Below are positions 22,886 to 44,649 of a stretch of 64,000 nucleotides of DNA, piece by piece (position 1 is the first letter of the stretch; each line of letters starts with the position of its first letter). Position numbers and translations under genes: made by a program. Under the pieces are notes generated by a model, which was not told where the DNA came from, searched no databases, and saw nothing but the letters and a program-made list of their open reading frames with translations. The stretch is from the NCBI RefSeq assembly GCF_000258425.1, contig NC_017461.1, positions 558,001-622,000 on the forward strand, written 5' to 3'. Source of the DNA: Fervidicoccus fontis Kam940 (GTDB taxonomy: Archaea; Thermoproteota; Thermoprotei_A; Sulfolobales; Fervidicoccaceae).

Positions 22886-24391
22886 TTACTGCAAAGCTTC
22901 CTCGAAGTACTTTCCCTCATTTTCCTCCTTCAAGCCAGAGAGAGAAAAGTATATTGTGAGAGAGAGAAATATTATGTGCCACAGCGCCCAGAAGAGGTTT
23001 ACCGCTATAGCGCCCCTCTCAGTTGGGAGGCTTGAAGTCAAGAGCCAATACGAACCATTTACTACAGAAGCTATGAGGAGGATGAAGATTATTATGTGCG
23101 GTATTATGGCTTTAAAGCTCCTCATCCCCTTTCCCTTAGGGGTGACCTTGAACGGGATCTTCCTTCCAAGCAAAAATGAGATGAATGCCATGGTTATGCC
23201 GAAGAATGCTAAATATTCATTAGCCTGGTGAACCAAGAATCCCCTCACACCATAGCTTGTACCTCTGATGGAGAATGCAAATATGAGGAAGGTTATTATC
23301 ATGTAAGGTATATAAGCCAAAATGTAGGCATATGGGTTCATCGCGATGAACCCCTGCTTGAATAAGAGGAAAACGACTGGGGCTATGAGCTCGAAGAGGG
23401 TGAGTATCCCCTCCTTCAACCAATAGAAGAACCCCGAGATGTAGTCGAAGAAAGCGATAAAGCTCAGGTCGCTCCTCAGTATCTTTCCAGTTATCTTGAA
23501 GTTCCCAAACGCCCACCTGTTCTGCTGCTGTATGTAGGAAGCCGCATCGAGGGGAGGCTCCCCGTACCAAATGAGCTGCTCATCATGATAAATAGACTTC
23601 CACCCCCTCCCATGCATTCTCACAGAGATCTCCGCGTCTTCAGTAATTGCGCTTTCATCAAAGTATCCCACATCCCTCACAGCATCAATCCTGAAAGTTG
23701 TGCCTGAGCCTAATGAGAATGCGGAAACGATGTTCCTCCCCTTCATTATTACTCTTAGGAAAGGCTCCTGCTGGAACTTCGCCCCATGCGCTATTTTTGA
23801 CCGTGTTTCAGTGTACCTCTGGGGGATCTGGACGAATCCGACTTTTGGGTCTGAGAAGTATGGGATTATGTGGTCGAAATAATCGCTCCTCGGCCTCTGA
23901 TCGGCGTCGAATATTGAGACGAGGTCGTACTTATCTCCATAAAGCTTTAATGCATTGTTTATAGCCCCAGCTTTGAAGCCCTTTCTATTTTCCCTATGAA
24001 CGTAGGTTATCCCGTTCTTCTCGCAGAAATTTTTGAGCTCCTCGGCAATCTCCTTCTTAGTCGAGTCATCAAGAAGGAAGACTTCTCCCCTCCCTCTCAG
24101 TGCGGATTTCACGGAGAGAAGGGTCTCCTCAACTATCTTAGGATCCTCGTTATAAGATGTTACAAAGGCCGCGATCCTGAGATTTTTCACTTCTCCTACA
24201 TGCTTTAAAGAATACTTTTTAGATCTTATATATGTGGAGGTGTAGTTCGCAGCCACGTAAGCCCCGACGACCATCGCGAGCCATATAAAGTATGTGAGCC
24301 AGGCTAGGTAAATTGAGGTCATTGTAAAGATTGTGAAGATGAGGGCGATTAAAAAGGGAGAAAGGAAGAAAAGGATATTCAAAGCCTTCAT
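22886..24391 (-). CDS. Cellulose-synthase-like processive glycosyltransferase (GT2, BcsA-type)
   Basis: A 501-residue membrane glycosyltransferase. Two N-terminal transmembrane segments (residues about 3-50) precede a GT2 domain with the D, DxD, TED and Q-x-x-RW motifs of processive synthases: LLDDS, FDADQRPRSDYF, ITEDAEISVRM and QQQNRWAFGNF. At least five membrane segments follow, with the gating-loop-like KIPFKVTPKGKG. The PilZ domain of bacterial BcsA is absent. It would polymerise and translocate a beta-linked polysaccharide from nucleotide sugar; which sugar is unknown. ATG 24391 overlaps the MinD-like stop as ATGA, so the two are translationally coupled. Confidence 0.9.
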   Translation of the reverse strand: MKALNILFFLSPFLIALIFTIFTMTSIYLAWLTYFIWLAMVVGAYVAANYTSTYIRSKKYSLKHVGEVKNLRIAAFVTSYNEDPKIVEETLLSVKSALRGRGEVFLLDDSTKKEIAEELKNFCEKNGITYVHRENRKGFKAGAINNALKLYGDKYDLVSIFDADQRPRSDYFDHIIPYFSDPKVGFVQIPQRYTETRSKIAHGAKFQQEPFLRVIMKGRNIVSAFSLGSGTTFRIDAVRDVGYFDESAITEDAEISVRMHGRGWKSIYHDEQLIWYGEPPLDAASYIQQQNRWAFGNFKITGKILRSDLSFIAFFDYISGFFYWLKEGILTLFELIAPVVFLLFKQGFIAMNPYAYILAYIPYMIITFLIFAFSIRGTSYGVRGFLVHQANEYLAFFGITMAFISFLLGRKIPFKVTPKGKGMRSFKAIIPHIIIFILLIASVVNGSYWLLTSSLPTERGAIAVNLFWALWHIIFLSLTIYFSLSGLKEENEGKYFEEALQ

Positions 24392-25746
24392 AAGGTCCAC
24401 GGAACCCTGCTGTACTCTAAGATATACCTGATCTCTCCATCCTCAGCTCTAGCCTTAACAACGAGGTCGACGTGCCCCTCTACCGCCAGGCAATTAGCTT
24501 TTTGCGGATCGCATATTACAGCGATAGAGATGTTCTCAAAGTTGCTCATCAGTTGCGTTAATAGCTCGTTCCAAAATGTCTTTGAGAGCAGAGATCTGTC
24601 GCAACAGTCGCTTGACGGCTCTATGTCTTCGGATGGGAAGAAGAAAATTAAGCCCTTCTCGAAGCTCTGCTTCCTCATCTCCTCCGTTATCTCTCCAGCA
24701 AGCTTCTTGGCCAATCTTATCCCATCGTCGAGGCTCTTGAGCTTTGTCCTCTCAGAAAGGTATGAATATACAGATTTGAAAACCGTGATTCCAATGAATG
24801 GATATATGCTGAGGGATGTGAACAGAAATCCTTTCGAGTTCGAGTAGCTCTCCCTAAGGACCCTCGATGCAGCTCTTATTACTTCTTGAGCTCCATTATA
24901 ATCCGCTTTTATTAAAGCTGAGGAGCTTGAGAACACGATCCTCTTTATAGGGTCGAGGGGAGAGGGGAATATGATCTCTCTCCCCCTCGGCTTCCTGATG
25001 AGGTAGTTCCCCAATTCCATAACCTGCGTGGGAACGCCTATCTTCTCGAAGTCAACCTGCTCAACTTGGTAGATAGGATAGTAGGGTATTGCAACTCCTA
25101 TCTCGGATCCCATGGAGTCCATGAATTCGAGAAGCGTTGAGAGAAATTCGCTTTGGCTGATCCTTGAGAAGTCCACCTTGTTAAGAACAGCCGCATCGAT
25201 CCTTTCACTTATATGCCCATTCTCCTTCAGCACTTTGAAGTACCTAATGGAACCTTCAATCGATGCCTTCGATGGATCGCTAATCATTATATAAGTGCTT
25301 TTCTCGCTGGAATGCTGATGAAAAGTAGCATATTCCCACCCCGTCACAACCTCCAGAGGAGTTGTCGCCGCCATTGTATCTACAATGACAATATCAAAGC
25401 TCCCATTTTCAAGTATCTTCCCGTAGGCTTCAGAGATCCTCTCCTTGTTTTTAATAAGGTCGTCCCTCTCATACTCTATAGGTATTCCGTCGCTGAATAA
25501 CTTGAGAGCAGTTATGCTCCCCCTTCCAAATTGAACTTTTGCCAAAGCCTTCTCGTATCCTTCCCCCTTCTTGATGAGTTGTATCAATCCTAGCCCGCTC
25601 AGCCCCAAATACGATGAAGCCGTGCTTATAGCATCTCTATCGACGAGGAGGACCCTCTTCCCGATCATTGCGAAGTACTTTGAGAGCGAAAGGCTTATCG
25701 AAGATCCTCCAACCCCTCCCTTCGCCCTCAAGATATCGATTCTCAT
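24388..25746 (-). CDS. MinD/ParA-like ATPase with degenerate P-loop (BcsQ-like position)
   Basis: A 452-residue SIMIBI-class ATPase-like protein, longer than MinD (about 260), with a C-terminal extension of unknown fold. The deviant Walker A motif, normally KGGxGKT/S, reads KGGVGGSS at residues 9-16. The signature Lys9 is kept but the phosphate-binding Lys is Gly. VLLVDRDAIS (Walker A') and DIVIVDTMAATTP (Walker B) remain. It is coupled to the cellulose-synthase-like gene, the same association as bacterial BcsQ with BcsA, where BcsQ localises the synthase. ATG 25746 has an AGTGATC site at six bases; GTG 25755 is an alternative. Confidence 0.85.
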   Translation of the reverse strand: MRIDILRAKGGVGGSSISLSLSKYFAMIGKRVLLVDRDAISTASSYLGLSGLGLIQLIKKGEGYEKALAKVQFGRGSITALKLFSDGIPIEYERDDLIKNKERISEAYGKILENGSFDIVIVDTMAATTPLEVVTGWEYATFHQHSSEKSTYIMISDPSKASIEGSIRYFKVLKENGHISERIDAAVLNKVDFSRISQSEFLSTLLEFMDSMGSEIGVAIPYYPIYQVEQVDFEKIGVPTQVMELGNYLIRKPRGREIIFPSPLDPIKRIVFSSSSALIKADYNGAQEVIRAASRVLRESYSNSKGFLFTSLSIYPFIGITVFKSVYSYLSERTKLKSLDDGIRLAKKLAGEITEEMRKQSFEKGLIFFFPSEDIEPSSDCCDRSLLSKTFWNELLTQLMSNFENISIAVICDPQKANCLAVEGHVDLVVKARAEDGEIRYILEYSRVPWTL

Positions 25747-25816
25747 AATGATCACTTTCTGTCATGATCATATATTATGAAAATTTATATTTAAAAATTT
25801 ATTAATTAATGAAAAA
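25747..25816. promoter_or_regulatory. Divergent promoter region with paired TGATCA palindromes
   Basis: The roughly 70 bases between the minus-strand MinD-GT2 pair and the plus-strand permease operon must hold both promoters. TATA-like stretches lie at about 25771-25777 and 25786-25797. TGATCA occurs at 25749-25754 and 25765-25770, 16 bases apart. The first copy also supplies the ribosome binding site of the MinD-like gene. A shared operator is possible but not shown. Confidence 0.35.
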
Positions 25817-26698
25817 ATGGTGGGTTTTCATTTAAGGAGGAAGAAAGCTTTGAATATGCCCTACCTCTCGATTAAAGCTATCTCATCCGCATGGAGGGGC
25901 GTGGAGATATTCATAATTGCATCCATCGCGCTATCTATATCTTTTCCCTTCGCATCTCTATACGACTCGATGAGCTCCATATTCTCCCTCTACCAAGCAC
26001 AGCAGTACAGCTACCAGATGCCGTTTGGAGCAAAACTTGGAGAAGGGTATTACCTCTCTGTAATATGCTCAGGGGGAGGAAATGAGGGGATCTTGCTTCC
26101 CGATTACATGAGGGAGGAATTTCCAGTAAACTCTACGGTGGAAATAAATGGAGATGGGTACAGAGTTTTGGGATATACCGGCTCAAACTCCTCCCTCGCG
26201 GTCCTCTATTCGAGATCCTGCAACTCCTTCTCCCAGCAATTATCCCCCATGCAGGTTCTGCTAAACTCAGCTCTTAAGGAAGCATTTGGAATAAGCATTT
26301 TGTGGATCTCCTTCTCCCTTATCCTCTCATCACTGACAACAGCCCTCCTCATGCTTAAGAACAGAGAGAGGGCGGAGGGTGAAATTAAAGCCCTCATTTC
26401 TATGGGCATAAGGAGGAGGCACTTTCTCCTGTCCTCGATCCTCTATTCTCTGATCCTCTCACTTCTCTCCTCGTTCATGGCTCTTTCCATAGGAATATTT
26501 TCCATGAAGCTTGTAGCCTATGCTTCTTCATCACTCTTCAACCTCTCAATACTCCAGCCATATATAACGCTCGATCATGCGCTATCTCTCCTTTCTGTAA
26601 GCGCCCTCTCCGTCTTTGTTCCATCTTTCTCTATTTCATGGGCTGAGTTCAGAATGTGCATGAAAAATGCTACAGAACAGGGCGGTGGGGGAGAGTGA
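25817..26698 (+). CDS. FtsX/MacB-type ABC permease, subunit 1
   Basis: A 293-residue membrane protein with one N-terminal transmembrane segment (about 31-55), an extracytoplasmic domain of some 100 residues rich in Gly and aromatic residues, and three C-terminal segments (about 155-180, 205-235, 255-275). That is the 1+3 topology of MacB/FtsX permeases. The cytoplasmic loop IKALISMGIRRRHFLLSSIL fits the coupling-helix region (family: LxAxGxxRRxI). ATG 25817 would give a near-leaderless message; TTG 25850 behind an AAGGAGG site is an alternative. Overlaps the next permease by a GTGA junction. Confidence 0.75.
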   Translation: MVGFHLRRKKALNMPYLSIKAISSAWRGVEIFIIASIALSISFPFASLYDSMSSIFSLYQAQQYSYQMPFGAKLGEGYYLSVICSGGGNEGILLPDYMREEFPVNSTVEINGDGYRVLGYTGSNSSLAVLYSRSCNSFSQQLSPMQVLLNSALKEAFGISILWISFSLILSSLTTALLMLKNRERAEGEIKALISMGIRRRHFLLSSILYSLILSLLSSFMALSIGIFSMKLVAYASSSLFNLSILQPYITLDHALSLLSVSALSVFVPSFSISWAEFRMCMKNATEQGGGGE

Positions 26699-27837
26699 AG
26701 AGGCTGGTCTTAAAGAGCTTCGGAATGAGGGGCTTCGCTATTGAAGTGCTCTCCCTCTTCTTCATCCTGATTTTCTCATACTCTCTCATATCGATAACCT
26801 CATCAGTAGCTTATGCTCCATTCTACATAGCTGAAGCTGGAGGTGGAGGGGAGCTGTTGTACAGCTCTTCAAGCACACTTGTATATACAGGCTTAGTTCC
26901 CTCATCCCTCTACACTTATCTTTTAAACGTAACAGGAGGTCAAGGGATTAGCCCGGAGGTTTCTGTACCAATTCTGATAGATGGAAAAGCCGTTTTAGCT
27001 AGGGGGATAGAGGTGGGGAGATTCGTGAAGTGTACGGATTTGAAAGTAATAGAAGGAGGTCTGAATTTATCGAATGGAGGCGCACTAGTGGGAGAGAGGG
27101 TTGCAGAAGGCTTTAAATTGAAGGTCGGGGATCAATTCACAGCGCTGAGCGCGATGAGCAATAGGAGCTTGACGTTTTTCGTAGTGGGAATCATCTCCGG
27201 TAGTGCTGTCTCCGATGAGGTGCTGATAAGCATAGATGATGCGAGATACTTAAGGGGGATAAATGATGAAATGCTCTCCTACATAAGGGTTTGCTCGCAA
27301 TCTCCTGAAGTTATGAACGCGATAGGAGAAATAGGGAACAGCTCTCAGGAGAGGGAGGGGATCTCCGTCCCCTCTTGGCTCCTTTCCCTGGCTTCAAGGT
27401 TCTCAGTATCATCGACGCTATCAGGCTACTCAACAAGGATCTCGAAAAATATAGAGGAGGCTGAGAGGGTCACTCTGATAGCATCTCTATCCGTATCAGT
27501 AGCTCTCTCATCGATCCTAGCCTTTTCTCTCTCAGGGGCTTCAATATCATCATCCTCGAGCGCAATAAAGGCTTTGAGGGATATGGGGATGAGAAAAAGG
27601 GATGTCCTAAAGAGCGTGGCGGTCGAGAAATCTATCGCTTTTTCATCATCTCTAATACTGTCGATCGCATCTTATTTGTTAATGGAGAAAATGGGCATAA
27701 TTTATGCGTACGTGCTTGAACACAGGATCCCGCCATCTCTTTCATGGATCGATGCAATGATATACACAATTGCAGTATTCTCTATTTACATAGCGATCTC
27801 TCTAAGAAGAGCGGAGGTCATTTTAAATGAGATCTAG
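26695..27837 (+). CDS. FtsX/MacB-type ABC permease, subunit 2
   Basis: About 380 residues from GTG 26695 (GTGA overlap with the preceding stop); an ATG 13 codons upstream is less likely. Topology: a signal-anchor segment, an extracytoplasmic domain of about 210 residues, and three C-terminal segments. VGERVAEGFKLKVGDQFTAL and FFVVGIISGSAVSDEVLISIDDARYL are typical MacB periplasmic-core features, and IKALRDMGMRKRDVLKSV is the coupling loop. It probably pairs with subunit 1 and the downstream ATPase. Such complexes transmit ATP-driven movement across the membrane rather than import solutes. Confidence 0.82.
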   Translation: MKRLVLKSFGMRGFAIEVLSLFFILIFSYSLISITSSVAYAPFYIAEAGGGGELLYSSSSTLVYTGLVPSSLYTYLLNVTGGQGISPEVSVPILIDGKAVLARGIEVGRFVKCTDLKVIEGGLNLSNGGALVGERVAEGFKLKVGDQFTALSAMSNRSLTFFVVGIISGSAVSDEVLISIDDARYLRGINDEMLSYIRVCSQSPEVMNAIGEIGNSSQEREGISVPSWLLSLASRFSVSSTLSGYSTRISKNIEEAERVTLIASLSVSVALSSILAFSLSGASISSSSSAIKALRDMGMRKRDVLKSVAVEKSIAFSSSLILSIASYLLMEKMGIIYAYVLEHRIPPSLSWIDAMIYTIAVFSIYIAISLRRAEVILNEI

Positions 27838-29350
27838 CGAAAAGCTATTGATAATAGCCTCGCTTTCATTCTTCTCCCTTCTCAGGCTCTTCCCTTACTT
27901 GAGGACTGGCGTTCCATATTCTATGGACTCACTCGGCTTGATAAGGAACGCCCTCGTTTTTTCATCACACTCCCCTATATCACTCTTCTCCGATCTGTTC
28001 GACGGATACAACAACTTCTGGCCAGGGGCCAGCATACTTGCATCTTCCCTCTCAATTGTAATCGGGGGAGAAATCGTCAAGGTCTCCTCCCTCCTCCCCG
28101 CATATGCTTTCTTCTCAACTGCCCTCTTGTTCTCCCTCCTGGGAATGGGCTTGAGGAGGGGGACTTCAATTGCGATAACATCAGCTATACTAGGGAGCAC
28201 TACTGGAATACTTATGTTGCAGGGATCGCTCATAAAGGAGGGGTTCGCCTACCCGCTCTTCGGTCTATTTCTATACCTCCTCTTCAGAAGGGAGAGCTCC
28301 CTGAGAACTGGGATCCTATTAGTGCTGACATCTTTTTCCCTAGCATTTACGCATCATTTCACCACTTTAATAGCTGTTCTCATCGCTGTTTTCTTCCTGA
28401 TCTCGGACCTCTTCAAGTCTATAAGCTTCGGGACTCCGAAAATAGGCTTCCACATCCTCTCTTCGCTTGAGATCATCCTTCCCTCATCGATCCAGTTCTT
28501 TCTCCTAGGGAGGTACAGCACCCTCTCTCTAGCGACTCCCTGGCTAGCCATTTCCCTATTCTCCTCTCTTTTCTTAACTGCATCTCTCTTCTCTCTCTCA
28601 TCTCCATACATCGAGAGGAGGATGAGAGAGGTGAAGATCGCATCGCTCTTTTCAATTCTCATCCTCTCCATGGTCTCTCTCTCATTCTACAAAGCGTTTG
28701 GATTGGAGCAGTTGCCCCCGAGCACCTACTTGTTAGCTACAGCATTCGCGCTCCTCCTCTCCTCCGCGATTCTGACCGCAGAGGGAGGAGATCTCAACGA
28801 TTTCTGGATCCCCTTCTTCTCCGTTCTCTCTTTGATGCTCTTCGCTCTTTCCGAGGACATCCCAATGAAGGTGGACATCCTTGAGAGATCTGCGACGTTC
28901 CTTATATTCCCACTCGCCACCATGCTCTCAATAAGGGGAAAGGGACTCAGGATCAGGAGAGCTTCGGCTCTCTCCTTCTCTCTGATAATGCTCTTAGTAT
29001 ACCTCCTCGTTCAGGCAGGAGTGTTTATATCTCCCGGATGGCACTGGATATATCATGAGGATGAGTTCGAGGCTGAGAGCTTCCTCCAGGATCACTACAG
29101 GATTGGAGAGAGCATAATGAGCGACATCAAGCAGGAGTATTTGCTCAGCTCATACGGCAACCTCAGCTCATCTCTTTGGAATGGGAGTATTGAAAGAGGC
29201 AACATTCTCTACTCAAGCTACATGGACAGGGAGGGGATGCTCCTGAACACGGGATATGTAATGGTTCTTGAAAAAATCTCCTTCTCCGCTCTCTGCCATA
29301 TGAATAGCATAGTATACAGCAACAGAGAGGAGGTGCTTTTTGTTGGGTAG
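27827..29350 (+). CDS. Polytopic membrane protein, GT-C-like
   Basis: A 507-residue protein with about twelve transmembrane segments. The first extracytoplasmic loop has an Asp in GVPYSMDSLGLIRN and the phrase DGYNNFWPG. The acidic residue in the first loop and the later HHFTT within a segment resemble archaeal GT-C enzymes that take sugars from polyprenyl-phosphate carriers. The C-terminal 100 residues after the last segment (GWHWIYHEDEFEAESFLQDHYRIG onward) are outside the membrane. It is embedded in the ABC operon, overlapping both neighbours by about ten bases. Enzyme activity is not proven; it could be a polymerase or flippase. Confidence 0.6.
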   Translation: MRSSEKLLIIASLSFFSLLRLFPYLRTGVPYSMDSLGLIRNALVFSSHSPISLFSDLFDGYNNFWPGASILASSLSIVIGGEIVKVSSLLPAYAFFSTALLFSLLGMGLRRGTSIAITSAILGSTTGILMLQGSLIKEGFAYPLFGLFLYLLFRRESSLRTGILLVLTSFSLAFTHHFTTLIAVLIAVFFLISDLFKSISFGTPKIGFHILSSLEIILPSSIQFFLLGRYSTLSLATPWLAISLFSSLFLTASLFSLSSPYIERRMREVKIASLFSILILSMVSLSFYKAFGLEQLPPSTYLLATAFALLLSSAILTAEGGDLNDFWIPFFSVLSLMLFALSEDIPMKVDILERSATFLIFPLATMLSIRGKGLRIRRASALSFSLIMLLVYLLVQAGVFISPGWHWIYHEDEFEAESFLQDHYRIGESIMSDIKQEYLLSSYGNLSSSLWNGSIERGNILYSSYMDREGMLLNTGYVMVLEKISFSALCHMNSIVYSNREEVLFVG

Positions 29351-30002
29351 GGTGTTGAGGCTTAAAGAAATTGAAGCCTGGTACGGGGACAGGATCGTGC
29401 TGAACGGAGTCAGCTTGAGCGCTGATGAGGGGGAGCTCATGAGGATTAGGGGAAGGAGCGGATCTGGGAAGAGCACGCTGCTCAGGATAATGTCTCTGCT
29501 CCAGAAGCCAAATGTGGGTGAGGTTGAAGTTCTTGGGAAGAGCGCGTGGAGCATCAGCGAGGGCGAGAGGGAGGAGCTGAGGGGAAAGATCTCGTACATC
29601 CCTCAGTTCCTGGAGCTCATAGAGAACTTGACTGTGCTAGAGAACGTACAGCTCGCGCTTGAAGTTAGAGGAATAGAAAACGGAGAGGATAGAGCGAGGG
29701 AAGCTTTAGAAGTTCTAGGAATAAGAGGATTTGAAGAGAGGCTTCCGAGAGAGCTCTCAGGGGGACAGAGGCAGAGGGTCGCGATAGCTAGAGCTCTAGT
29801 TTCAAGCCCAAAGATTTTGATCGCGGATGAGCCTACGAGCTTTTTAGATGATATAGCTTCATCCTCATTCTACAGACTGCTCGAAGAGCTTTCCTCATCT
29901 TTTAAAATGGGAATAATCGTGTCAACAACTGAGCTGAATCTTCCCAAAAGAAGCGGGTGGAGGGAGATGATCCTGGAGAAGGGATCTCTGAGGGAGTTGT
30001 GA
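29340..30002 (+). CDS. ABC transporter ATP-binding protein (LolD/MacB-like) lacking the H-loop histidine
   Basis: A 220-residue nucleotide-binding subunit. Walker A GRSGSGKST near residues 39-47, a Q-loop in SYIPQFLELIENLTVLENV, signature LSGGQRQRVAIARAL and Walker B ILIADEPTSFLD are all intact. The switch region normally reads V-T-H-D; here it is STTEL, with Thr197 in the His place. The start is TTG 29340 (overlap of 11 bases with the GT-C-like gene) or GTG 29352. It serves the two FtsX-like permeases upstream. Confidence 0.9.
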   Translation: MLGRVLRLKEIEAWYGDRIVLNGVSLSADEGELMRIRGRSGSGKSTLLRIMSLLQKPNVGEVEVLGKSAWSISEGEREELRGKISYIPQFLELIENLTVLENVQLALEVRGIENGEDRAREALEVLGIRGFEERLPRELSGGQRQRVAIARALVSSPKILIADEPTSFLDDIASSSFYRLLEELSSSFKMGIIVSTTELNLPKRSGWREMILEKGSLREL

Positions 30003-30545: not shown

Positions 30546-31586
30546 ATGGTGATAAAGCTCCCTCACGAAGTTATGATGAAGTATGTTCTGAATAGAGTTG
30601 GAAGGGAAGATCCCCAGGTTATAATGGGTCCGAAAATAGGAGAGGACGCTTCTATAATCGATTTGGGAGATGGGAGGGTCCTAGTCTCCCACGTCGATCC
30701 AATAGTAGGCGCAATCGAATCGATAGGTTGGCTCTCTGTGAACATAGTAAGCAACGACATAGCGGTTAGGGGAGTTGAGCCGAGGTGGCTTCTCTCGGAC
30801 ATCCTCCTTCCCGAGAGTTCGAGCATTGATCTTCTGGACAGGATAACTTCCCAGATAGATGAAGCCGCAAAGGAAGTAGGAGTGATGATCGTAGGAGGGC
30901 ACACAGTATTCGCTCCTAAGCTGACGAGGCCCATAGTATCTATGACGGCTATTGGAATAGGGGAGAGGGAAAAGATCGTAACGACCTCTGGTGCTAGAGA
31001 GGGAGATGAAATTGTTATGACGAAAACTGCAGGCATTGAGGGGACAGCGATTCTCGTCACGGACTTCAAGGATGTCCTTCTGAAGAAAGGTATAAAGGAA
31101 GAAGTTCTGGAAAGGGGAAGAGAATTCCTGAAGATGGTGAGCGTTGTCAAGGAAGCCCTAGCGCTCTCGAGGAGAGGATTAGCTAACTCGATGCACGATG
31201 CAACGAACGGAGGGGTTCTCGAGGGAGTAGCGGAGATGGCTTATGCCTCTAGGAAAACCATTGAGCTCTTCGAGGATAGAATCCCAGTTGCTGAGGAGAC
31301 CGCTTCAATGTCAAAAGCCTTGGGAATAGATCCCCTAAAGCTCATAAGCTCGGGAGTCCTCATTGCTTCCGTACCTAGCGGAAGGGGGAGAGAGGCTGTT
31401 GAGCTCCTGAGATCAATTGGAATAAAAGGTTCTGTGGTAGGGAGAGTAAAGGAGTTCTCAGGAGATTATCTTCTGCTGCACAGAAAAAATGGAGGAATTG
31501 AGAGGATCGGGGATATATACATTGAGGACGAGCTCGATAATCTTTGGGAATCCTACAGAAAGGAGGTTTCGAAGAGCGATCTCTAG
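30546..31586 (+). CDS. PurM/HypE-like AIR synthase-related protein
   Basis: About 346 residues with the two-domain PurM ATP-binding fold: GPKIGEDASIIDLGDGRVLVSHVDPIVGA at the N-terminus, the SNDIAVRGVEPRWLLSDILLP block and VGGHTVFAPKLTRP. It resembles HypE and the AIR-synthase-related proteins common in archaea. The C-terminus ends in a charged tail and lacks the terminal Cys on which HypE builds the thiocyanate, so it is not a hydrogenase maturation HypE. ATG 30546 follows a GGAGAGG site; TTG 30534 is an alternative. Substrate unknown. Confidence 0.82.
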   Translation: MVIKLPHEVMMKYVLNRVGREDPQVIMGPKIGEDASIIDLGDGRVLVSHVDPIVGAIESIGWLSVNIVSNDIAVRGVEPRWLLSDILLPESSSIDLLDRITSQIDEAAKEVGVMIVGGHTVFAPKLTRPIVSMTAIGIGEREKIVTTSGAREGDEIVMTKTAGIEGTAILVTDFKDVLLKKGIKEEVLERGREFLKMVSVVKEALALSRRGLANSMHDATNGGVLEGVAEMAYASRKTIELFEDRIPVAEETASMSKALGIDPLKLISSGVLIASVPSGRGREAVELLRSIGIKGSVVGRVKEFSGDYLLLHRKNGGIERIGDIYIEDELDNLWESYRKEVSKSDL

Positions 31587-31588
31587 GA

Positions 31589-32560
31589 ATGAATTCTAGG
31601 ATTTTGGTTACAGGAGGAGCGGGCTTCATAGGAAGCCATCTCGTTGATAGGCTAATAGAGAGAGGAGAGGAAGTCTTAGTAATAGACGACCTGAGCAGCG
31701 GGAAGACAGAGAACTTAGAGAGATGGTTTGGGGAGAAGAAATTCAAGTTCATCAAAGCAGATCTCTCCGAGCCTGGAAAATGGATAGACGAGCTGAAAGG
31801 CATAGAGGCCGTTTTCCACTTCGCAGCGAACCCAGAGGTCAGGGTCAGCACAACAAACCCAGAAGTGCACTACAGAGCAAACGTACAAGCTACCTTCAAC
31901 GTCCTGGAGGCTTCCAGAGCTAATGGAGCCGAGATCTTCATCTATGCTTCCTCTAGTACCGTTTATGGAGAAGCTAGGGTAATCCCAACTCCAGAGGATT
32001 ATGAGCCCAAGGAGCCGATCTCGATCTATGGAGCTTCTAAGCTGATGGGAGAGGTGCTTGTATCAACATATTCTAGGATTTATGGAGTGAAGAGCGCGAT
32101 GCTCAGGTTCGCGAATGTTGTTGGGAAGAGGAGCAACCACGGAGTGATATTTGACTTCATAGCGAAGCTGAAGAGGGATCCAGAGAGGCTCGAAATCCTT
32201 GGAGATGGAAAGCAGAGGAAAAGCTACATCTATATAGACGATGCTATTGAAGCTACACTGAAAGTTATGGAGCACATGGAAAGCTCGCAGGAAATGAGCG
32301 AGGCATTCAATGTGGGGTCCCTCGATGCAATCGGAGTCGACGATATCGCATACATAATCGAGGAGGAAATGGGCTTGGGGAAGGTGGAACACGTCTTCAA
32401 GAGCGCAACTCATGATGGGAGAGGTTGGATAGGAGACGTCAAGGTCATGCAGCTAGACGTTTCAAAGATAATGGGGAAAACCAATTGGAAGCCGAAGATG
32501 AATTCCAGGGAAGCTGTGAGGAAGGCTACGAAGGATCTTCTCGAGAGAATGGAGCTCTAG
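31589..32560 (+). CDS. NAD-dependent sugar-nucleotide epimerase/dehydratase (GalE-like)
   Basis: A 323-residue extended short-chain dehydrogenase. The Rossmann motif VTGGAGFIGSHL starts at residue 6, the catalytic YxxxK is SIYGASKLMGE near residue 150, and SSSTVYGEA supplies the Ser/Thr. The C-terminal substrate domain ends in WKPKMNSREAVRKAT. Family members interconvert UDP-glucose/galactose or form dehydrated sugars. It begins two bases after the PurM-like stop and is followed four bases later by a GT2, so it probably makes donor sugars for the glycan genes. Confidence 0.92.
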   Translation: MNSRILVTGGAGFIGSHLVDRLIERGEEVLVIDDLSSGKTENLERWFGEKKFKFIKADLSEPGKWIDELKGIEAVFHFAANPEVRVSTTNPEVHYRANVQATFNVLEASRANGAEIFIYASSSTVYGEARVIPTPEDYEPKEPISIYGASKLMGEVLVSTYSRIYGVKSAMLRFANVVGKRSNHGVIFDFIAKLKRDPERLEILGDGKQRKSYIYIDDAIEATLKVMEHMESSQEMSEAFNVGSLDAIGVDDIAYIIEEEMGLGKVEHVFKSATHDGRGWIGDVKVMQLDVSKIMGKTNWKPKMNSREAVRKATKDLLERMEL

Positions 32561-32564
32561 AGAG

Positions 32565-33668
32565 ATGCTGGAATATATAGGACTAGGATTGGCCTTAATC
32601 CACTTCGGGACGCCCCTCTCCTATTATGTTTATATGAAGAAGAAGTATTTCGGAAAGCCCTGGGACATGAAGAGGGAGGAGGGCTTTAAGCCCAAGATCA
32701 CTGTAATTGTTCCGACATACAACGAAGCGAAACTCATAGAGAAGAAGCTCGATGACATCTACGCCCAAGAGTATCCTAGAGATAGGCTGGAGGTTATCCT
32801 CATAGACTCCGCATCCTCCGATGGCACCTTGGAGATAGCTGAGAAGTGGAAGGAAGAGCATGGGGAAATAAACCTGAAGATAATTGGGGAAGATTCTAGA
32901 AGAGGGAAGGCTCATTCTCTCAATGAGGCTCTCAAGCACTCTACAGGAGAAATAGTCGTAATCACGGATGCAGATTCTTTCTGGGGAACGAGGGATTCTC
33001 TGGGAAGAGCTGCCGAGTGGTTCTCCGATCCTTCAGTTGGAGCGGTTTCATGCTTGAAGGATCCAGAGGGATCGGAAGCTCCAAGCATAGAACTGGGCTA
33101 CAGGGGGTACTACAATGTCCTAAGGGTAGCCGAGAGCAAAGCCTACTCCACTCCAATATTCCATGGAGAGCTCGCATCCTTCAGAAAAGACCTTTTGGAG
33201 GAGGTTGGAGAGTTTCCAGTAGATATAGGCTCAGATGACAGCCACACGGCGACGAAAATAGCAGCAATGGGATACAGAGCCATAATACCTGAGGATGTTC
33301 TGTGTAAAGAATTGGTGCCCAAGAGAGGTTACAATTCCTGGAGGATAAGGAGGGCTCAGCACCTTGTGCAGCACTTCATGAAAGCGATGAAGCTAAAAGT
33401 GAAGGCTCCTAAGAATTTCGATAGAATATTGAAGGTGGAGGAATACCTTCACTTGATGAATCCATGGATACTCTTGGGTGGAGCAGTTCTGCTTTCAGCA
33501 TCGGCCATAATGGGCTCTCTCATTTCCTTGATATTCTTAGCTTTAGGCATAGCTCTGCTCATGTACAAGCCATACAGGACTTGGATATCGATGCAACTTT
33601 ACCTAGTAATTGCAGCAATTAAGAATCTCTGGAGCAGGGAAATTGTCTGGGAGAAGCAGGAAAAGTAG
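32565..33668 (+). CDS. Membrane-anchored GT2 glycosyltransferase
   Basis: A 367-residue family-2 glycosyltransferase. There is an N-terminal hydrophobic segment (about 3-22), then the GT2 domain with VIVPTYNEAKLIEKKL, VILIDSASSDGT, TDADSFW (DxD-like) and SDDSHTATKIA as acceptor acidic motif, RRAQHL as the Q/RxxR-like motif, and two C-terminal membrane segments around 302-335. This arrangement is seen in processive or dolichol-linked GT2s. Immediately after the epimerase in an operon. Sugar and acceptor cannot be told. Confidence 0.88.
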   Translation: MLEYIGLGLALIHFGTPLSYYVYMKKKYFGKPWDMKREEGFKPKITVIVPTYNEAKLIEKKLDDIYAQEYPRDRLEVILIDSASSDGTLEIAEKWKEEHGEINLKIIGEDSRRGKAHSLNEALKHSTGEIVVITDADSFWGTRDSLGRAAEWFSDPSVGAVSCLKDPEGSEAPSIELGYRGYYNVLRVAESKAYSTPIFHGELASFRKDLLEEVGEFPVDIGSDDSHTATKIAAMGYRAIIPEDVLCKELVPKRGYNSWRIRRAQHLVQHFMKAMKLKVKAPKNFDRILKVEEYLHLMNPWILLGGAVLLSASAIMGSLISLIFLALGIALLMYKPYRTWISMQLYLVIAAIKNLWSREIVWEKQEK

Positions 33669-33880
33669 AATATCGAATGTTATAACAGAATGCTAAATGA
33701 GAATAGTTTCAATAAGACTAAGGTTTGTGTCGAAACGTATAGCTTCCCAATCGTCTCGTAAAGACTTTCAATCGCGTTTGAAGCTGAAGCAACTGTAAGA
33801 AAAACCAGAGGATATATGGATAATCCGCTTAGCACATGCCAATTATTATCTCGGTATTCTCATAAATTGACTAGTTTATA

Positions 33881-34903
33881 GTGTTATTATTGAGAATATT
33901 ATTCGTGTCACCCAGCTATTATCCACATATAGGTGGTGTAGAGTACGTAGTCAAGAGCATAGCTGAAAGATTAGCTAGGATGGGTCATGACGTTATTATA
34001 CTAGCGGGAAAGCCTGATTCTGAGAAACCTTATGAGGAGGTTGTTAATGAAGTCAACGTTATTAGATGGCCTGTCTGGAGCCCAAGCGGAGCGTATCATA
34101 TACCTAAAATGCATAGCAAATTGGATAAACAGCTGAGAGATGTGCTCAATTATCTTGATGTCGTTCATGTTCACAGTGCACATAGCATTTTCTCCGTCTA
34201 TACAGGTTTAGCCGTGAAAAAGCTAAAACCTGATATCAGACTAGTCTTTACTCCCCACTATCATGGGGGCGGTCATTCTTTTACTAGGAACGCTTTATGG
34301 TTTTTGTGGAGAAGGCGTATGTCTAAGCTTGTGGAGATATCAAGTATGGTTCACGCAGTCAGTAAACCTGAAGCTTCTAGAATACTAAATCATTACCCTA
34401 AGGCGAATGAAAAGCTGGTCGTGATACCAAACGGTATTGAAGAAGATGTATTGGAATATAAATGGATTGGGAAAGATAGCGATTATATGATTTATGCAGG
34501 GAGGATAGAAAAGTACAAAAATCTGGAGAAAGCGATAGAAGTGGCTAGGCAGCTGGGATTAAAACTCCTACTCATCGGCAATGGTCCCTATAAGAAGAGG
34601 CTCGAGGCTAAAGCAGAAAGAACTTACCCAAATGCGGTAGCTTTTAAAAATTTCTTACCAAGAGCCCAATATTTGGATTTACTTTCGAAAGCTAGATATG
34701 TCATAAACCCCAGTGAAAGAGAAGCTTTCAGTATATTCATAGCAGAAGCTCTAGCAATGGGAGTACCAGCTATTATTTCGAGAAATATAGCAGAAAACCT
34801 AGATGTTAACGGTAGTGAAATGGTTGAAGGTTTAGTCGTTGTGGAAAAAGGTTTAGTAGAAACATGGAACAACGTTTTAAGAAAATATCTAAGTATTTAT
34901 TGA
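33881..34903 (+). CDS. GT4 glycosyltransferase
   Basis: A 340-residue GT-B enzyme. The N-terminal Rossmann part has the acceptor-side loop SYYPHIGGVEYVVKSIAERLARMGHDV, and the C-terminal part has the donor-binding E-x7-E motif in EREAFSIFIAEALAMGVPAI. The start is GTG 33881 or TTG 33890. It is the first gene of the mosaic glycan region, where base composition becomes more A+T-rich than in the preceding operon. Compared with standard GT4 enzymes (about 360-400) it is a little short at the C-terminus. Confidence 0.88.
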   Translation: MLLLRILFVSPSYYPHIGGVEYVVKSIAERLARMGHDVIILAGKPDSEKPYEEVVNEVNVIRWPVWSPSGAYHIPKMHSKLDKQLRDVLNYLDVVHVHSAHSIFSVYTGLAVKKLKPDIRLVFTPHYHGGGHSFTRNALWFLWRRRMSKLVEISSMVHAVSKPEASRILNHYPKANEKLVVIPNGIEEDVLEYKWIGKDSDYMIYAGRIEKYKNLEKAIEVARQLGLKLLLIGNGPYKKRLEAKAERTYPNAVAFKNFLPRAQYLDLLSKARYVINPSEREAFSIFIAEALAMGVPAIISRNIAENLDVNGSEMVEGLVVVEKGLVETWNNVLRKYLSIY

Positions 34904-34976
34904 TGGGTTTTTACGATGATACGTTCAGATAAAATTATTACGTTTATTACAACTTCGGGGAATTTCTTATTGTGTT

Positions 34977-35486
34977 ATGGACATTGGGGCGATATACTTC
35001 ACAATATTAGCTACCAGGGAAGAACTTAACTTAAGAGCAGTTATCGTTGGACCAGGTGACCAAAGGCTGTATAGGGAACTAGCCGATAAGCTCGGCATTA
35101 GCAATAAAGTCTTATTCACAGGATTCGTTGATGAAGATACTAAGATTGGGGCCATTGACGCATCAATAGCCCTAACCCTACCCAGTTTAAGTAACTATGT
35201 AGAAGCATATTCACTGGCAATAACGGAGGCATGGGCCAGGGAAAAACCAGTAATAGCCTCAGCTACAGGCGAAATACCATACAGGGTAAAGCACATGATT
35301 AATGGACTCGTGGTACCACCCAGAGACCCTAAAGCCCTAGCCGAAGCAATAAAAATACTTATTCAAGATAGGGGGCTAGGTGAAAAACTTGGTGAGATCG
35401 GAAAGAGCGGAGTGATTACTTGGAGCAATGTGGTGGATATGCTATTGAAAATATATGGTGAAGTATTTAATGCATCCAAGGGTTAA
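34977..35486 (+). pseudogene. GT4 glycosyltransferase, C-terminal half only
   Basis: 169 residues corresponding to the donor-binding half of a GT4 enzyme: AVIVGPGDQRLYRELADKLGISNKVLFTGFV, then the E-x7-E region EAYSLAITEAWAREKPVIAS and GLVVPPRDPKALAEAI. The acceptor-binding half is missing; nothing comparable is readable in the 73 bases upstream. Probably a truncated gene left by recombination, though the domain itself has no internal lesion. Confidence 0.75.
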
Positions 35487-36134
35487 AGACTCTGTGGATC
35501 TGTTAAACATGTATGGGGGAAGGATAGATAGCATCATTGAACTTGGATTTGGTGATGGGTCAATTTTATCTGAAGTTGCTAAGCATGTTAGAGTTAGGGC
35601 ATTGTATGGATGCGATATCAATTATGAGGCTCTTAATAAAGCCAGTGAAAAAGGGATAATTACCGTTAAGGCTGATCTCAATACTGATAAGCTTTCCTTT
35701 CCAGACAATTACTTTGACGCAGTCATAATGGAGGAGGTAATAGAGCACCTAGTTAATCCAGACAATGCATTAGAGGAAGCATACAGGATACTTAAGCCAG
35801 ACGGTATATTCATATTGACAACACCTAACCTGGCCTGGTGGGTTAATAGGTTCATCCTCCTATTAGGGTCCAGCCTTATTGGAGCGAAGTGAGCACCAAG
35901 TACAATGTTGGTAAACTGCTCAGGAGCACTAATGAGCCGTTAAGCGGCCACTTAAGGCTATATACTCTCAGGGCGTTAAAAGAATTATTAAGACTACATG
36001 GATTCAATGTAGTGGGTGTAAAGGGTACATCATACCCTCACAATAGCTTACTTCACGTAATTGATAAGGTGGCATCAGCTATATCTCCAGGCCTAGCCGA
36101 AATATTAGCTATTGCGGCAAAACCTATGAAGTGA
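35470..36134 (+). pseudogene. SAM-dependent methyltransferase (type 11), single frameshift
   Basis: The first part (to TGA 35890-35892) has SAM-binding ELGFGDGSILSEVA, then FPDNYFDAVIMEEVIEHLVNP and the typical EAYRILKPDGIFILTTPN. After a one-base slip near 35886 the other frame continues with VSTKYNVGKLLRSTNEPLSGHLRLYT and runs to 36134, which is the normal C-terminus of this family. Joined, it would be about 220 residues. It is either a recent pseudogene or a sequencing error. ATG 35470 is the likely start; ATG 35455 overlaps the preceding gene more. Confidence 0.8.
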
Positions 36135-36139
36135 CTGGT

Positions 36140-37207
36140 ATGAAGATTGCATTAATACGCCGTGAATACATAACGCACATTGACGGTGTCAACAGGTTTA
36201 TAGCCTGGCTTGGGGAGGCGTTCAGGAAGCTTGGCCATGATGTTGTAGTGATTAGCTGGGGCTTCTATAACGTTGATAGGGATGAATTAAGTAAGTGGAT
36301 TAAGGATATACATGCATTAGATGAGGAGATAGAGGTAATGACACTAATGGATAAGCCAACACATGGGGATCCTTGGAGTAGAATAACATTCGACTGGTTA
36401 ATTAAAGGAGCTAAGCTTCTCAAGAAAGAGGAGGTAGATATTGCTATAGTTAATGGTGTTATTCCTTTAAGCTCTAGACCAAAGATTGCGATTGCTCATG
36501 GACCTATTTCTATTTCAAAAATTCAACACATGGTAATCAAGGCACTTTATGCAACCTATGACATGGTAATCTGCGTTTCTAGCAAGAGTAGACAAGAGTA
36601 TGCTAGTATAGTTAACTGTGAAGCTATAATACCATTACCAATGAAGCTAAGTCTCTATAATCCATTAGATTATCGGCAGCGGAGCAATACTATAGTACAC
36701 ATAGGCACTAGATCCGTGAAGAATCCTGAAATTAGCATAAAAACTATTGATATACTTAGAAGGAAGGGATATGACGTTAACTTAGCCGTAATAGGACCAT
36801 ATTCAAAGCAGGTAGAGGAACTAGCCAAGGGTGATAACTCCATTGAATTGCACTTTAATGCTGAGGAGAGGGAGAAGATGAGGATTTTATGCGGTGCTAA
36901 GGCACTAATATTACCATCAAGCAATGAAACATTCTCATTCACAGCCATGGAAGCCATGGCCTGTGGTACGCCTGTAGTGGTTTCAGATGCAGTACCTGAG
37001 GAGGTCGTTATAGATGGATACAATGGGGTGAGGGTGAGGAGCCTTAACCCTAAGGACTACGCCGCGGTACTTGAAAGATTGCTGGTCGATAAAGAGCTGT
37101 GGATTAGATTATCAACAAATGGCATTGAATTCGTTAAGCAATTTGACTACATCAACATAGCTAAGAGGTATATTGAAATCTCTGAAAGGCTAATTAAGGA
37201 AGGTTAA
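36140..37207 (+). CDS. GT4 glycosyltransferase
   Basis: About 355 residues from ATG 36140, with a GTG three codons upstream also possible. The N-terminal MKIALIRREYITHIDGVNRFIAWLGEAFRKLGHD is the GT-B acceptor loop, VHIGTRSVKNPEISIKTI starts the donor half, and the E-x7-E motif is in NETFSFTAMEAMACGTPVVVSD. Likely adds a hexose to a surface or N-glycan. It follows the broken methyltransferase within five bases. Confidence 0.9.
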   Translation: MKIALIRREYITHIDGVNRFIAWLGEAFRKLGHDVVVISWGFYNVDRDELSKWIKDIHALDEEIEVMTLMDKPTHGDPWSRITFDWLIKGAKLLKKEEVDIAIVNGVIPLSSRPKIAIAHGPISISKIQHMVIKALYATYDMVICVSSKSRQEYASIVNCEAIIPLPMKLSLYNPLDYRQRSNTIVHIGTRSVKNPEISIKTIDILRRKGYDVNLAVIGPYSKQVEELAKGDNSIELHFNAEEREKMRILCGAKALILPSSNETFSFTAMEAMACGTPVVVSDAVPEEVVIDGYNGVRVRSLNPKDYAAVLERLLVDKELWIRLSTNGIEFVKQFDYINIAKRYIEISERLIKEG

Positions 37208-37217
37208 GAAATTGGTT

Positions 37218-37322
37218 ATGAAGGCTTCCGTAATTGTACCGTCAACAAGCCTAGAGAGGCTAAGTGTTCTCCTTCGCAGCCTTACCTATCAATCTATTAA
37301 GCCTCATTATTTGTTAGTATAA
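37218..37322 (+). pseudogene. GT2 glycosyltransferase N-terminal stub
   Basis: A 34-codon frame beginning KASVIVPSTSLERLSVLLRS and continuing with SLTYQSIKPH is the first beta-alpha unit of a GT2 enzyme, cut off by TAA at 37320-37322. No continuation is present because the next GT4 starts eight bases later. A recombination scar from a replaced gene. Confidence 0.6.
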
Positions 37323-37329
37323 AGGATTC

Positions 37330-38517
37330 ATGACTAACATCCTTATAATTTCTGAAAAATGGTGGCCGGAGGGAGGTGGAGCTGAATTAGCAACATATCT
37401 TATAACTGATATGCTTTCAAGGCACTTTAAGGTAACTGTAATTACAGGTAGCAAGCTACATAAATCGCTAAATGGCGTAAGAATGTTCAATACACCATTA
37501 CTCATATCACACAGCAAACACGAACTTTGGATCAAGACTACGTTACTAGCAAACGAATCATGGTTTAAAAAACTAATTAAGAATACGGATATTGTTTACA
37601 TACCAGGTTTCTCTTTCCCAGTAATATCATTGGCAAAAAGAATGGGTAAAAAAGTTATTGTACATTTACATGGTTATATACCTGTAAGTTATACGTCATT
37701 AATTCCGGCACCATATGAAGAGAATAAAAACAGTATTTGGAAATTCAATATTTGGCTAGAGCATAGAAGAGGTCTGGTTAACCTATTATTAGCGGGATTA
37801 TCATCGTATATAATGCCTAGAATAGCTCGAACCTGGTTAGAACAAGCAGATAAAGTATTATGTGTTTCCAACAGGCACGCAAAGATAATAAGTGAGTTAG
37901 CACCAAAGCTAAAGAATAAGATAGCAGTCATCTATAATCCGCCGCCAAAAGATTCACTGATGATTAACACTAATGAGATAAGTAAGGAACATAAGCCAAC
38001 AATTGCGTACAATATCTCAGATATAATTAAGGGATATCATATATTTCTCAAGGTACTTTTAAGATCGTCAGATAACACAAGATTCATAACCTTCGGCTCT
38101 ACCATTCCTGCAAATATAAAAAATAAGGAAAAAAACATCCTTCACTATCCGAGAAGACTTTCTCATGAGGAAGTTATTAAAATTTACATGAGGAGCTGGG
38201 CCGCATTATCTCTCTCGATCGTGGAAGAGACCTTTGGTTACGCTGTTCTTGACGCAGGATTAGCAACAGCAATACCCATAGCGTTTAAAGTTGGTGGCAT
38301 AAGTGAGATTATTGAAGGAACTCATGCTGAATCCTTTTCCGTGAAACCATATGATATCTCCAGCTTACTGGATAAGATCGAGTATATCTCGTCCATGTCT
38401 CCTCACCAAGTCATGGATATTGGTATCAAGATAAGGAGTGAACTTCTTAGAAAATTTGATGAGAAGAAAATAGAGAGTTCTTTAATCGAGATATTTAATA
38501 CGATCCTATCAGAATAG
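37330..38517 (+). CDS. GT4-like glycosyltransferase
   Basis: A 395-residue GT-B-type protein. N-terminal EKWWPEGGGAELATYLITDMLSRHFKVTVITG is a GT4 acceptor loop; the donor-side motif reads EETFGYAVLDAGLATAIPIAFKVGGISEI, with Asp in place of the second Glu of E-x7-E. Strongly A+T-rich codon use compared with upstream genes suggests foreign origin together with the next two genes. Intact reading frame. Confidence 0.8.
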   Translation: MTNILIISEKWWPEGGGAELATYLITDMLSRHFKVTVITGSKLHKSLNGVRMFNTPLLISHSKHELWIKTTLLANESWFKKLIKNTDIVYIPGFSFPVISLAKRMGKKVIVHLHGYIPVSYTSLIPAPYEENKNSIWKFNIWLEHRRGLVNLLLAGLSSYIMPRIARTWLEQADKVLCVSNRHAKIISELAPKLKNKIAVIYNPPPKDSLMINTNEISKEHKPTIAYNISDIIKGYHIFLKVLLRSSDNTRFITFGSTIPANIKNKEKNILHYPRRLSHEEVIKIYMRSWAALSLSIVEETFGYAVLDAGLATAIPIAFKVGGISEIIEGTHAESFSVKPYDISSLLDKIEYISSMSPHQVMDIGIKIRSELLRKFDEKKIESSLIEIFNTILSE

Positions 38518-38523
38518 TAGTTA

Positions 38524-39579
38524 ATGATCACTATGTGTGAAAAAGAGGCATCAACGTGTGTCAGTATTGTTTTAACAACTTATAATGATGAGGATACAAT
38601 ATCAGCAGTTCTTAACAGTATTTATACATTAGGATTAGATCTAAACCATATAGAGTTAATAATAGTTGACGGAGGTAGTACTGATAAGACTCTTAGTATA
38701 ATTAATGACTTTCTTTCTAACAATGCGATATACTTTAAACGTAATTTGTTAATAGTTCATGATAAAAATTACGGAATATCAAGGGCACGTAATGACGGAA
38801 TTAGAGAGGCACGGTGTCCGTATGTGCTAATACTAGACAGTGATATAGTGCTGCCAAGTAATGCGTTAGAGACAATGCTACAATACTTGATAAGTGAACG
38901 AAAAACTAAAAAAGTTGTAGGCGTTAAACCACTAATAGATACGGCTCCTTTTATATTTAAGGTTATCGCACAAGGTAAGATACATCGTAAGAATTTGGGT
39001 GCCTGTGAAGCTTTTTTAGCATCAACCGAGATATTAATGAAAAATATGTATGATGAAACTATGGGTCCACCTCACTCATCTGATGAAGATATTGAATTAG
39101 GAGCTCGACTATTAAAGCAAGGTCTCGAAATACACATGCTTGGCTTTATTACGGCACATCATATTAAATCCCCGCAAAGCTTATATGTGACGACAACTAG
39201 ATCTAAAAAGAAATACCTTATAAAAATATTAAAAATAATACGTAGTTATTATACTCCTTACGTGAAATATGGATTCAAAAGATACTTTAAGAGCCTTCCT
39301 ATCTTAATTAAATTTTCATATATTTTAGACATGATAACGTATATGACTATGATAATGATTATTGCTCTCTCAGTAATTACAATCAGCTGGCATACTCAAT
39401 TTTCATATTGTTCAGGACTATTAAGTATTATGTTCACTAGTTCGATCATTAGTTCATTAATTATTAAGATTATTTTCGAATTAAAAGGCTTATTCGATTA
39501 TAGAACTCTGCATTATATAGTTTTATACGCATTCCTGCAGTCAATTAATAGATTCTTAAGAATGTTATCCTTGATTTAG
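38524..39579 (+). CDS. GT2 glycosyltransferase with C-terminal membrane segments
   Basis: A 351-residue GT2. SIVLTTYNDEDTISAVLNSI opens the domain, IIVDGGSTDKT and LILDSDIVLPSNALETM carry the DxD-type metal site, and SSDEDIELGARLL the acidic acceptor motif. Two or three hydrophobic segments close the protein (about 265-335). The start may be ATG 38524 or ATG 38533. A+T-rich like its neighbours. Confidence 0.85.
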   Translation: MITMCEKEASTCVSIVLTTYNDEDTISAVLNSIYTLGLDLNHIELIIVDGGSTDKTLSIINDFLSNNAIYFKRNLLIVHDKNYGISRARNDGIREARCPYVLILDSDIVLPSNALETMLQYLISERKTKKVVGVKPLIDTAPFIFKVIAQGKIHRKNLGACEAFLASTEILMKNMYDETMGPPHSSDEDIELGARLLKQGLEIHMLGFITAHHIKSPQSLYVTTTRSKKKYLIKILKIIRSYYTPYVKYGFKRYFKSLPILIKFSYILDMITYMTMIMIIALSVITISWHTQFSYCSGLLSIMFTSSIISSLIIKIIFELKGLFDYRTLHYIVLYAFLQSINRFLRMLSLI

Positions 39580-39584
39580 CCTAA

Positions 39585-41357: not shown

Positions 41358-41398
41358 TAACGTTATAATATGGGTTAAACTTTAAAAGGGTATTAAGA

Positions 41399-42544: not shown

Positions 42545-43100
42545 AATACAAAGGATTTAATTATATTAAGGCTTTGTTTTAGATAATGAAGAGCTAGCAA
42601 TTGTTCATTTCTAATTCCTCTTATTCTGTAGCCTGGCAAGTAAAAGTCATTCATGTTCTGTCTAGATTTAAAACCCATATTTACTCCTCTAATTCCCAAA
42701 TCTAATTAATAATCAATAGTAGGTATTAACGTTTTGCTAAATAATCCTTGCCCTTGCATGCTAATAAACCCATGCCATTGATGATATAATTTCGGTGATT
42801 TGAAATAGTTAATCAACAATTTAATTGATTTTAAGTGTTCATAACAACATTGGGTAGCAAGTACGGAAAGCCCATGAATTATTGCTGTTTCATCGTGATA
42901 TCTATGGAATGGTACATGATTCCTCAAATCTCTTTCCAATCATTCTTTAGCAATCATAGGTATGAATATATATGGCAGTTCAATGGAACATTACTATACT
43001 CTTAAAGCCTAATTTACCGGCGAATGCATTAGCAAGCATTAACCATCTAATTCTCTCCCACAGGATTAATATTGTATCGATATTGTAGTCACGAGACACC
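42545..43100 (-). pseudogene. Decayed minus-strand gene, unrecognised
   Basis: Read on the minus strand, this gap keeps long stretches of one frame with few stops: DTILILWERIRWLMLANAFAG near 43080-43000, a shift, then about 80 residues including PFHRYHDETAIIHGLS and SPKLYHQWHGFISMQGQG ending at a TAA near 42716, and then in the same frame about 50 more residues to a stop near 42543. Such continuity over a stop is typical of a dead gene. I do not recognise the family; the first block looks glycosyltransferase-like. The spacer otherwise holds nothing clear. Confidence 0.35.
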
Positions 43101-43106
43101 CTAGTT

Positions 43107-44526: not shown

Positions 44527-44649
44527 CTTTGCAAAGTTTTATCGGTATATGTCTTTAATATATGTGAATGGTAAATCTGTAGTGTTAACATTAAGTATTT
44601 AAGTATTTGAGTCATATAGTTCTGTGTTATCGGGAAACCTCGTGAGATC

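Follow-up and report, generated by a model that had tools for sequence, protein, structure and literature searches.

A BcsA-like synthase/MinD-like gene pair and an FtsX/FtsX/GT-C/ABC operon lie back to back as two separate modules in Fervidicoccus fontis

The stretch of DNA analysed here (the window) comprises 64,000 nucleotides of the Fervidicoccus fontis Kam940 genome, positions 558,001 to 622,000 of contig NC_017461.1, and our subject is a group of six genes at window positions 22886–30002. Two of them lie on the minus strand and are called module 1. The gene of a MinD/ParA-like SIMIBI protein with a C-terminal domain of ~190 residues (24388–25755, alternative ATG start at 25746; assigned by Pfam AAA_31/CbiA and a fold model) runs into the gene of a BcsA-like processive family 2 glycosyltransferase (GT2), the two sharing an ATGA at 24388–24391. 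The GT2 gene occupies 22886–24391 when it starts at the ATG of this overlap, and its open reading frame (ORF) in full, with an alternative GTG start at 24400, is 22886–24400. Beyond a divergent intergenic region of 61 bases (25756–25816), in which pattern positions mark TTTATA and TTTAAA boxes, follow the four plus-strand genes of module 2. These encode the FtsX-like permease FtsXa (25817–26698; PF02687, 8.1e-08, and family profile matches in relatives), a second such permease with an extracytoplasmic domain, FtsXb (26656–27837, likely start GTG 26695; PF02687, 2.9e-05), a predicted GT-C glycosyltransferase of 507 residues (27827–29350) and an ATP-binding cassette (ABC) ATPase of the LolD/FtsE-like, type VII kind (29340–30002; PF00005, 1.1e-35; LolD model TIGR02211, 6.3e-49, under its cut-off). 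They overlap in series, by a GTGA at 26695–26698 and by 11 bases at each of the next two junctions. Over the six genes Pfam recognizes GT2, AAA_31/CbiA, FtsX (FtsXa above the cut-off, FtsXb slightly under it) and ABC_tran.

A preliminary description, made from the sequence alone, had placed all six ORFs and their motifs correctly. It was also right about the divergent arrangement, although it put the spacing at about 70 bases, and three points go beyond it: an FKVTPKG motif in the GT2, a phosphate-binding loop (P-loop) without lysine in the MinD-like protein and an ABC ATPase without the H-loop histidine. Its main proposal was that the six genes form one machine for the synthesis and export of a polymer, and it had named a survey of archaeal genomes in which the halves prove mostly separate as the outcome that speaks against this. 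We made the survey in 147 genomes at the level of the order and 300 at the level of the phylum, which are subsets of a single phylum, with bacteria and other archaeal phyla outside the sample. Of the 147 order genomes, 9 have a GT2 orthologue (>50% identity) and 20 the polytopic GT-C protein, and the two are present together in just three, all of the same family. Among the 300 phylum genomes the GT-C occurs in 42, the GT2 orthologue in 8 and both in 2, where ~1 is expected by chance; in one of these 2 genomes (G066) the GT-C match is a weak one, at a gene with no FtsX beside it.

In both samples taken together, the halves are adjacent only in F. fontis and on one near-identical contig. In G040, a relative from the family of F. 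fontis with both halves, they lie on separate contigs, C70 and C5. The near-identical contig, C310 (locus L102), belongs to the metagenome-assembled genome G048 and holds both halves. It may be contamination because G048 also contains its own, diverged copy of module 2 on contig C15. When contigs were searched for related loci, the sole match was a Fervidicoccus contig from a metagenome-assembled genome, whose GT2 is identical (100%) over its 345 residues.

The GT-C and GT2 genes are thus independent of each other and co-occur in the phylum at chance level, which is the refuting outcome named in the preliminary description. A single six-gene machine, in which the polymer of the BcsA-like synthase would be modified by the GT-C and extruded with ABC help under MinD-like control, is very improbable and is already refuted as a general arrangement; we rejected it in view of the co-occurrence counts and the synteny. 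What speaks for it is that the halves are adjacent and divergent, share a short intergenic region and encode only envelope- or glycan-related products. The locus is two separate modules placed back to back, each widely conserved and contiguous only in this lineage. Hence, of the original interpretation the GT2/MinD-like pair and the four-gene operon stand, whereas the joint machine does not.

The synthase of module 1 is BcsA-like. It matches the CelA model TIGR03030 at 1.4e-54, yet far under the equivalog cut-off, and in a profile comparison with E. coli BcsA (5.9e-44 across 420 columns) the alignment spans the entire BcsA core. The D, DxD, TED and QxxRW motifs noted before, in the form DDST, DADQRP, ITED and QQxxRW, are invariant in 8/8 aligned orthologues. 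An F[KR]VTPK motif aligns with the gating-loop motif of cellulose synthase (fnvtakg in BcsA); in F. fontis it is FKVTPK at 23135–23152 on the minus strand, and the extended form FKVTPKG is kept in all eight orthologues. FxVTxK is present in every full-length GT2 paired with a MinD-like protein and is missing from the remaining QxxRW GT2s that we examined, among them an unpaired relative in G397. The GT2 ends just past its last transmembrane helix, and neither Pfam nor NCBIfam finds a PilZ domain in it, as the preliminary description had said; no BcsB (PF03170) was found in the genome at an E-value of 0.1. Both had been considered as a partner for the GT2. Judged by its sequence, the enzyme is the core of a BcsA-like synthase with no PilZ domain, in a genome with no BcsB. 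It shares with the E. coli type II Bcs system the membrane GT2 core, the four catalytic motifs, the gating loop and a translationally coupled SIMIBI ATPase adjoining the synthase. Unlike that system, it has neither PilZ nor BcsB, and none of BcsZ, BcsC, BcsE and BcsR was seen at the locus.

In all 11 orthologues (11/11) the MinD-like gene is directly upstream of the GT2 gene, so the translationally coupled two-gene cassette is real. The MinD-like gene is truncated in two of the orthologous pairs (G083 and G262). Across genera nothing else is conserved around the pair but a short-chain dehydrogenase near two pairs, and our literature searches turned up no archaeal BcsA-MinD pair. The model of the MinD-like protein (pLDDT 83.5) matches MinD and ParA over its N-terminal half by fold search. 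Its C-terminal domain is missing from the many 260-residue paralogues of Sulfolobaceae-like genomes. As ArsA, a tandem SIMIBI protein, topped the Foldseek list, we considered an internal duplication. However, the whole-length TM-score was ~0.3 and a self profile comparison gave the trivial full-length match only; the idea found no support and the domain was therefore given no assignment.

The protein carries a variant of the deviant Walker A motif, KGGVGGSS (25699–25722, minus strand), in which alignment and a motif census place glycine at the position of the P-loop lysine. The same replacement is found in G040 and G209, and the lysine is kept in the other relatives with an intact N-terminus. 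The genome G209 belongs to another order and its MinD-like protein (L190:7839-9188) reads KGGSGGST; since this variant is common to G209, F. fontis and G040, it suggests that the whole cassette was transferred between orders. In G083 (L096:8636-10997) a gene for a Mutator-type transposase immediately precedes the N-terminally truncated MinD-like gene, and the equivalent site of the sister genome G101 (L103/L049) holds only a GT2 remnant with stops. In the genus of G083 and G101 the pair is therefore undergoing loss.

BcsQ of E. coli, a SIMIBI ATPase, dimerises with ATP bound and makes contact with BcsA, and secretion requires it (PMC11470070). The MinD-like protein has the same fold and is likewise encoded beside a synthase. 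Unlike BcsQ, it bears a C-terminal domain that short MinD/ParA paralogues lack, and its matches to the curated BcsQ models are marginal, passing neither PF06564 (12.9 bits, cut-off 21.3) nor TIGR03371 (18.8 bits, cut-off 157.85). By analogy with BcsQ, we propose that the protein, extra domain included, would bind the GT2 from the cytosolic side and position or activate the synthase. The GT2 itself would most likely polymerise a beta-linked hexose into a cellulose-like chain and extrude it via its own membrane channel.

The pair also occurs in genome G042, which we take to be that of Sulfolobus acidocaldarius DSM 639. The biofilm exopolysaccharide of S. acidocaldarius, for which the saci_1904-1927 cluster has been suggested as maker, consists chiefly of mannose (35%), glucose (29%) and ribose (PMC9549778). 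The MinD-like/GT2 pair is a second candidate for its synthesis. This composition, together with the TIGR03030 score, also favours a different reading of module 1, in which the product of the GT2 is not a beta-glucan (it could be a mannan, a glycolipid or an aminosugar polymer) and the role of the MinD-like protein is to place the enzyme, not to activate it. The gating-loop motif and an alignment over the whole BcsA core count against it, and we regard it as the less probable option, though one to be taken seriously.

Sequence searches of Pfam, NCBIfam and PDB gave no match for the polytopic protein of module 2, which was resolved only through a fold search. Its model (pLDDT 73) matches human and yeast oligosaccharyltransferase (OST), PglB, DPY19 and AftA with a Foldseek probability of 1.00, well apart from other membrane folds. 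Because of these matches, the earlier guess of a GT-C membrane fold was right as far as prediction shows. Like STT3/PglB/AglB and DPY19, the protein has a predicted multi-helix membrane domain, a small C-terminal soluble domain and a conserved early aspartate; the invariant residues of the family include D34, K137-E138, H176 and R354. Unlike STT3/PglB/AglB, no member of the family (0/16) matches Pfam STT3 (PF02516), one giving a weak PMT_2 match, and its length of 507 residues compares with ~650–700 for most OST matches.

The exact order FtsX-FtsX-GTC-ABC recurs in 21/34 loci from many families, and an FtsX gene adjoins the GT-C gene in 28 of the 34, which bears out the coherent overlapping operon described before. 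In our literature searches no ABC/GT-C operon was described. A membrane GT2 gene lies inside the module in three relatives (L113:7268-8440, L114:7610-8788 and L207:7664-8881); in L113 the GT-C gene is also followed by a gene for a UbiA-family prenyltransferase. The remaining products have the features of a type VII ABC system, namely permeases of the FtsX fold (PF02687) and a LolD/FtsE/MacB-like ATPase (PF00005). The GT-C-linked ATPases retain the Walker A, signature and Walker B motifs, yet not the full ABC catalytic motif set, as 26 of the 27 lack the H-loop histidine and read TTTDL or STTEL instead of xTHD. In F. fontis the region is IIVSTTELNLP (29913–29945, plus strand), with no switch histidine. 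Most other ABC ATPases of this genome retain the residue, and its loss is specific to module 2. The missing histidine suggests slow or atypical hydrolysis and, to judge from the motif, a switch rather than a pump.

Type VII ABC complexes perform mechanical work outside the membrane and are themselves defined by a partner, and YbbAP-TesA is a recent case of an enzyme as partner (PMC12646458). Module 2 is like FtsEX, LolCDE, MacB and YbbAP-TesA in its FtsX-fold permeases and LolD/FtsE-like ATPase, and like YbbAP-TesA in its enzyme partner. It is unlike them in that the partner is a membrane GT-C encoded within the operon, that the two permeases are different and that the H-loop histidine is missing. 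One might suppose that the ABC half works as a conventional exporter or lipoprotein extractor, like MacB or LolCDE, and that the GT-C is merely co-located, as the LolD and FtsE models are nearest to the ATPase and an FtsXb orthologue in a relative gives a weak MacB_PCD match (6.8e-06, slightly under the cut-off). This is unlikely given that in 21/34 loci the GT-C gene sits within the operon, with a permease on one side and the ATPase on the other, and that the ATPase lacks a histidine which a canonical ADEP/THD-type ATPase elsewhere in the genome (L213) keeps.

The usual context of module 2 is seen in the relatives, where its neighbours are a MoxR ATPase (15 loci), DUF4350 (12), DUF1616 (12), DUF58-like proteins (10) and GT2s (14), the last being a heterogeneous group in which the module-1-type GT2 of the window is also counted. 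Three neighbouring GT2s that we checked are AglJ-like dolichyl-phosphate glycosyltransferases, under the model cut-off. MoxR AAA+, a vWA protein, DUF4350 and pfam07760 (DUF1616) are listed as parts of the putative arCOG01314 secretion/membrane-remodelling system (Makarova et al. 2015, Table 2, PMC5898192), and the MoxR, DUF4350, DUF58 and DUF1616 neighbours of module 2 match these parts. Unlike module 2, the system as given there has no ABC/GT-C partner among the Table 2 entries covered here; FtsX, MacB and permease are unmentioned in the main text, and in the sections considered a SalXY-type ABC appears solely for a different system (section 3.3). Outside F. fontis, module 2 belongs to this arCOG01314 system predicted in 2015, and its membership in another gene cluster is a further argument against a six-gene machine.

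F. fontis itself keeps the cluster complete and collinear with the relatives at ~494.5–503 kb of the contig, minus exactly the four module genes. In the two relatives compared, module 2 lies at the border of the cluster, beside the AglJ-like gene. The module and cluster genes diverge alike, F. fontis being farther from both relatives than these are from each other, as orthologues should. Since the intact cluster, ~80 kb away from module 2, lacks exactly those four genes, the simplest reading is that module 2 moved to its present place in the F. fontis lineage and now lies by chance beside module 1.

For module 2 we propose that FtsXa, FtsXb and the ABC ATPase would form a type VII complex of the FtsEX/LolCDE kind that does not export sugar but would drive or gate the membrane-bound GT-C at the outer face. 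The GT-C would take its sugar from a polyprenyl-phosphate donor, which would be supplied by an AglJ-like enzyme whose gene lies at another place in the F. fontis genome, and would transfer it to extracytoplasmic acceptors, namely proteins belonging to the MoxR/DUF58/DUF4350/DUF1616 surface system. The genome also encodes a separate AglB/STT3, and module 2 is therefore probably not the main N-glycosylation enzyme. The same gene bears on another explanation, in which module 2 would combine a flippase for lipid-linked oligosaccharides with an oligosaccharyltransferase, as an archaeal counterpart of PglK-PglB, its ABC half flipping the donor of the GT-C. A GT-C fold closest to OST enzymes and the AglJ-like dolichyl-phosphate glycosyltransferase beside the module in relatives would suit it. 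The odds are nevertheless well against it: besides the separate AglB/STT3, the permeases are FtsX-like and thus of the type VII kind, which typically moves no substrate across the membrane (PMC12646458), and the H-loop histidine is missing.

Taken as a whole, two unrelated adjacent modules with the mechanisms proposed above are the best explanation, to which we assign a probability of roughly 0.6. Several points weigh against it. The motifs of the GT2 cannot tell the product sugar; the fold search finds no specific relative of the C-terminal domain of the MinD-like protein; and loss of the P-loop lysine could, from the sequence, mean impaired ATPase function. In module 2 the Foldseek TM-scores of the GT-C are ~0.5, and GT-C genes without FtsX or ABC neighbours occur in L110, L202 and L205.

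Beside the modules, at window positions 31544–48616, lies a plus-strand cluster with genes for an epimerase, a GT2, several GT4s and an FrhB-like protein and with unassigned ORFs. Its GC content drops to 0.29 near 40–42 kb, and it looks like a variable surface-glycan island. An ORF of 590 residues within it (39585–41357) has no Pfam match.

In summary, the locus holds two real archaeal envelope modules that are neighbours by chance. If the MinD-like/GT2 pair does occur in the genetically tractable S. acidocaldarius, it would provide a cellulose-synthase-like candidate where the exopolysaccharide genes are not yet established. For module 2 we tentatively envisage, with the balance still tilted against it, a Thermoproteota-wide surface-glycosylation machine in which an H-loop-less type VII ABC complex mechanically gates an STT3-like GT-C, together with an AglJ-like donor synthase and the MoxR/DUF58/DUF4350/DUF1616 complex. 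If true, this would be the first case of an ABC-gated GT-C glycosyltransferase, as far as literature searches and our knowledge go. With module 2, a conserved archaeal surface system that was predicted in 2015 and is, as far as we found, still uncharacterised gains an ABC/GT-C core and a dolichyl-phosphate glycosyltransferase, which suggests a testable glycosylation role for that system.

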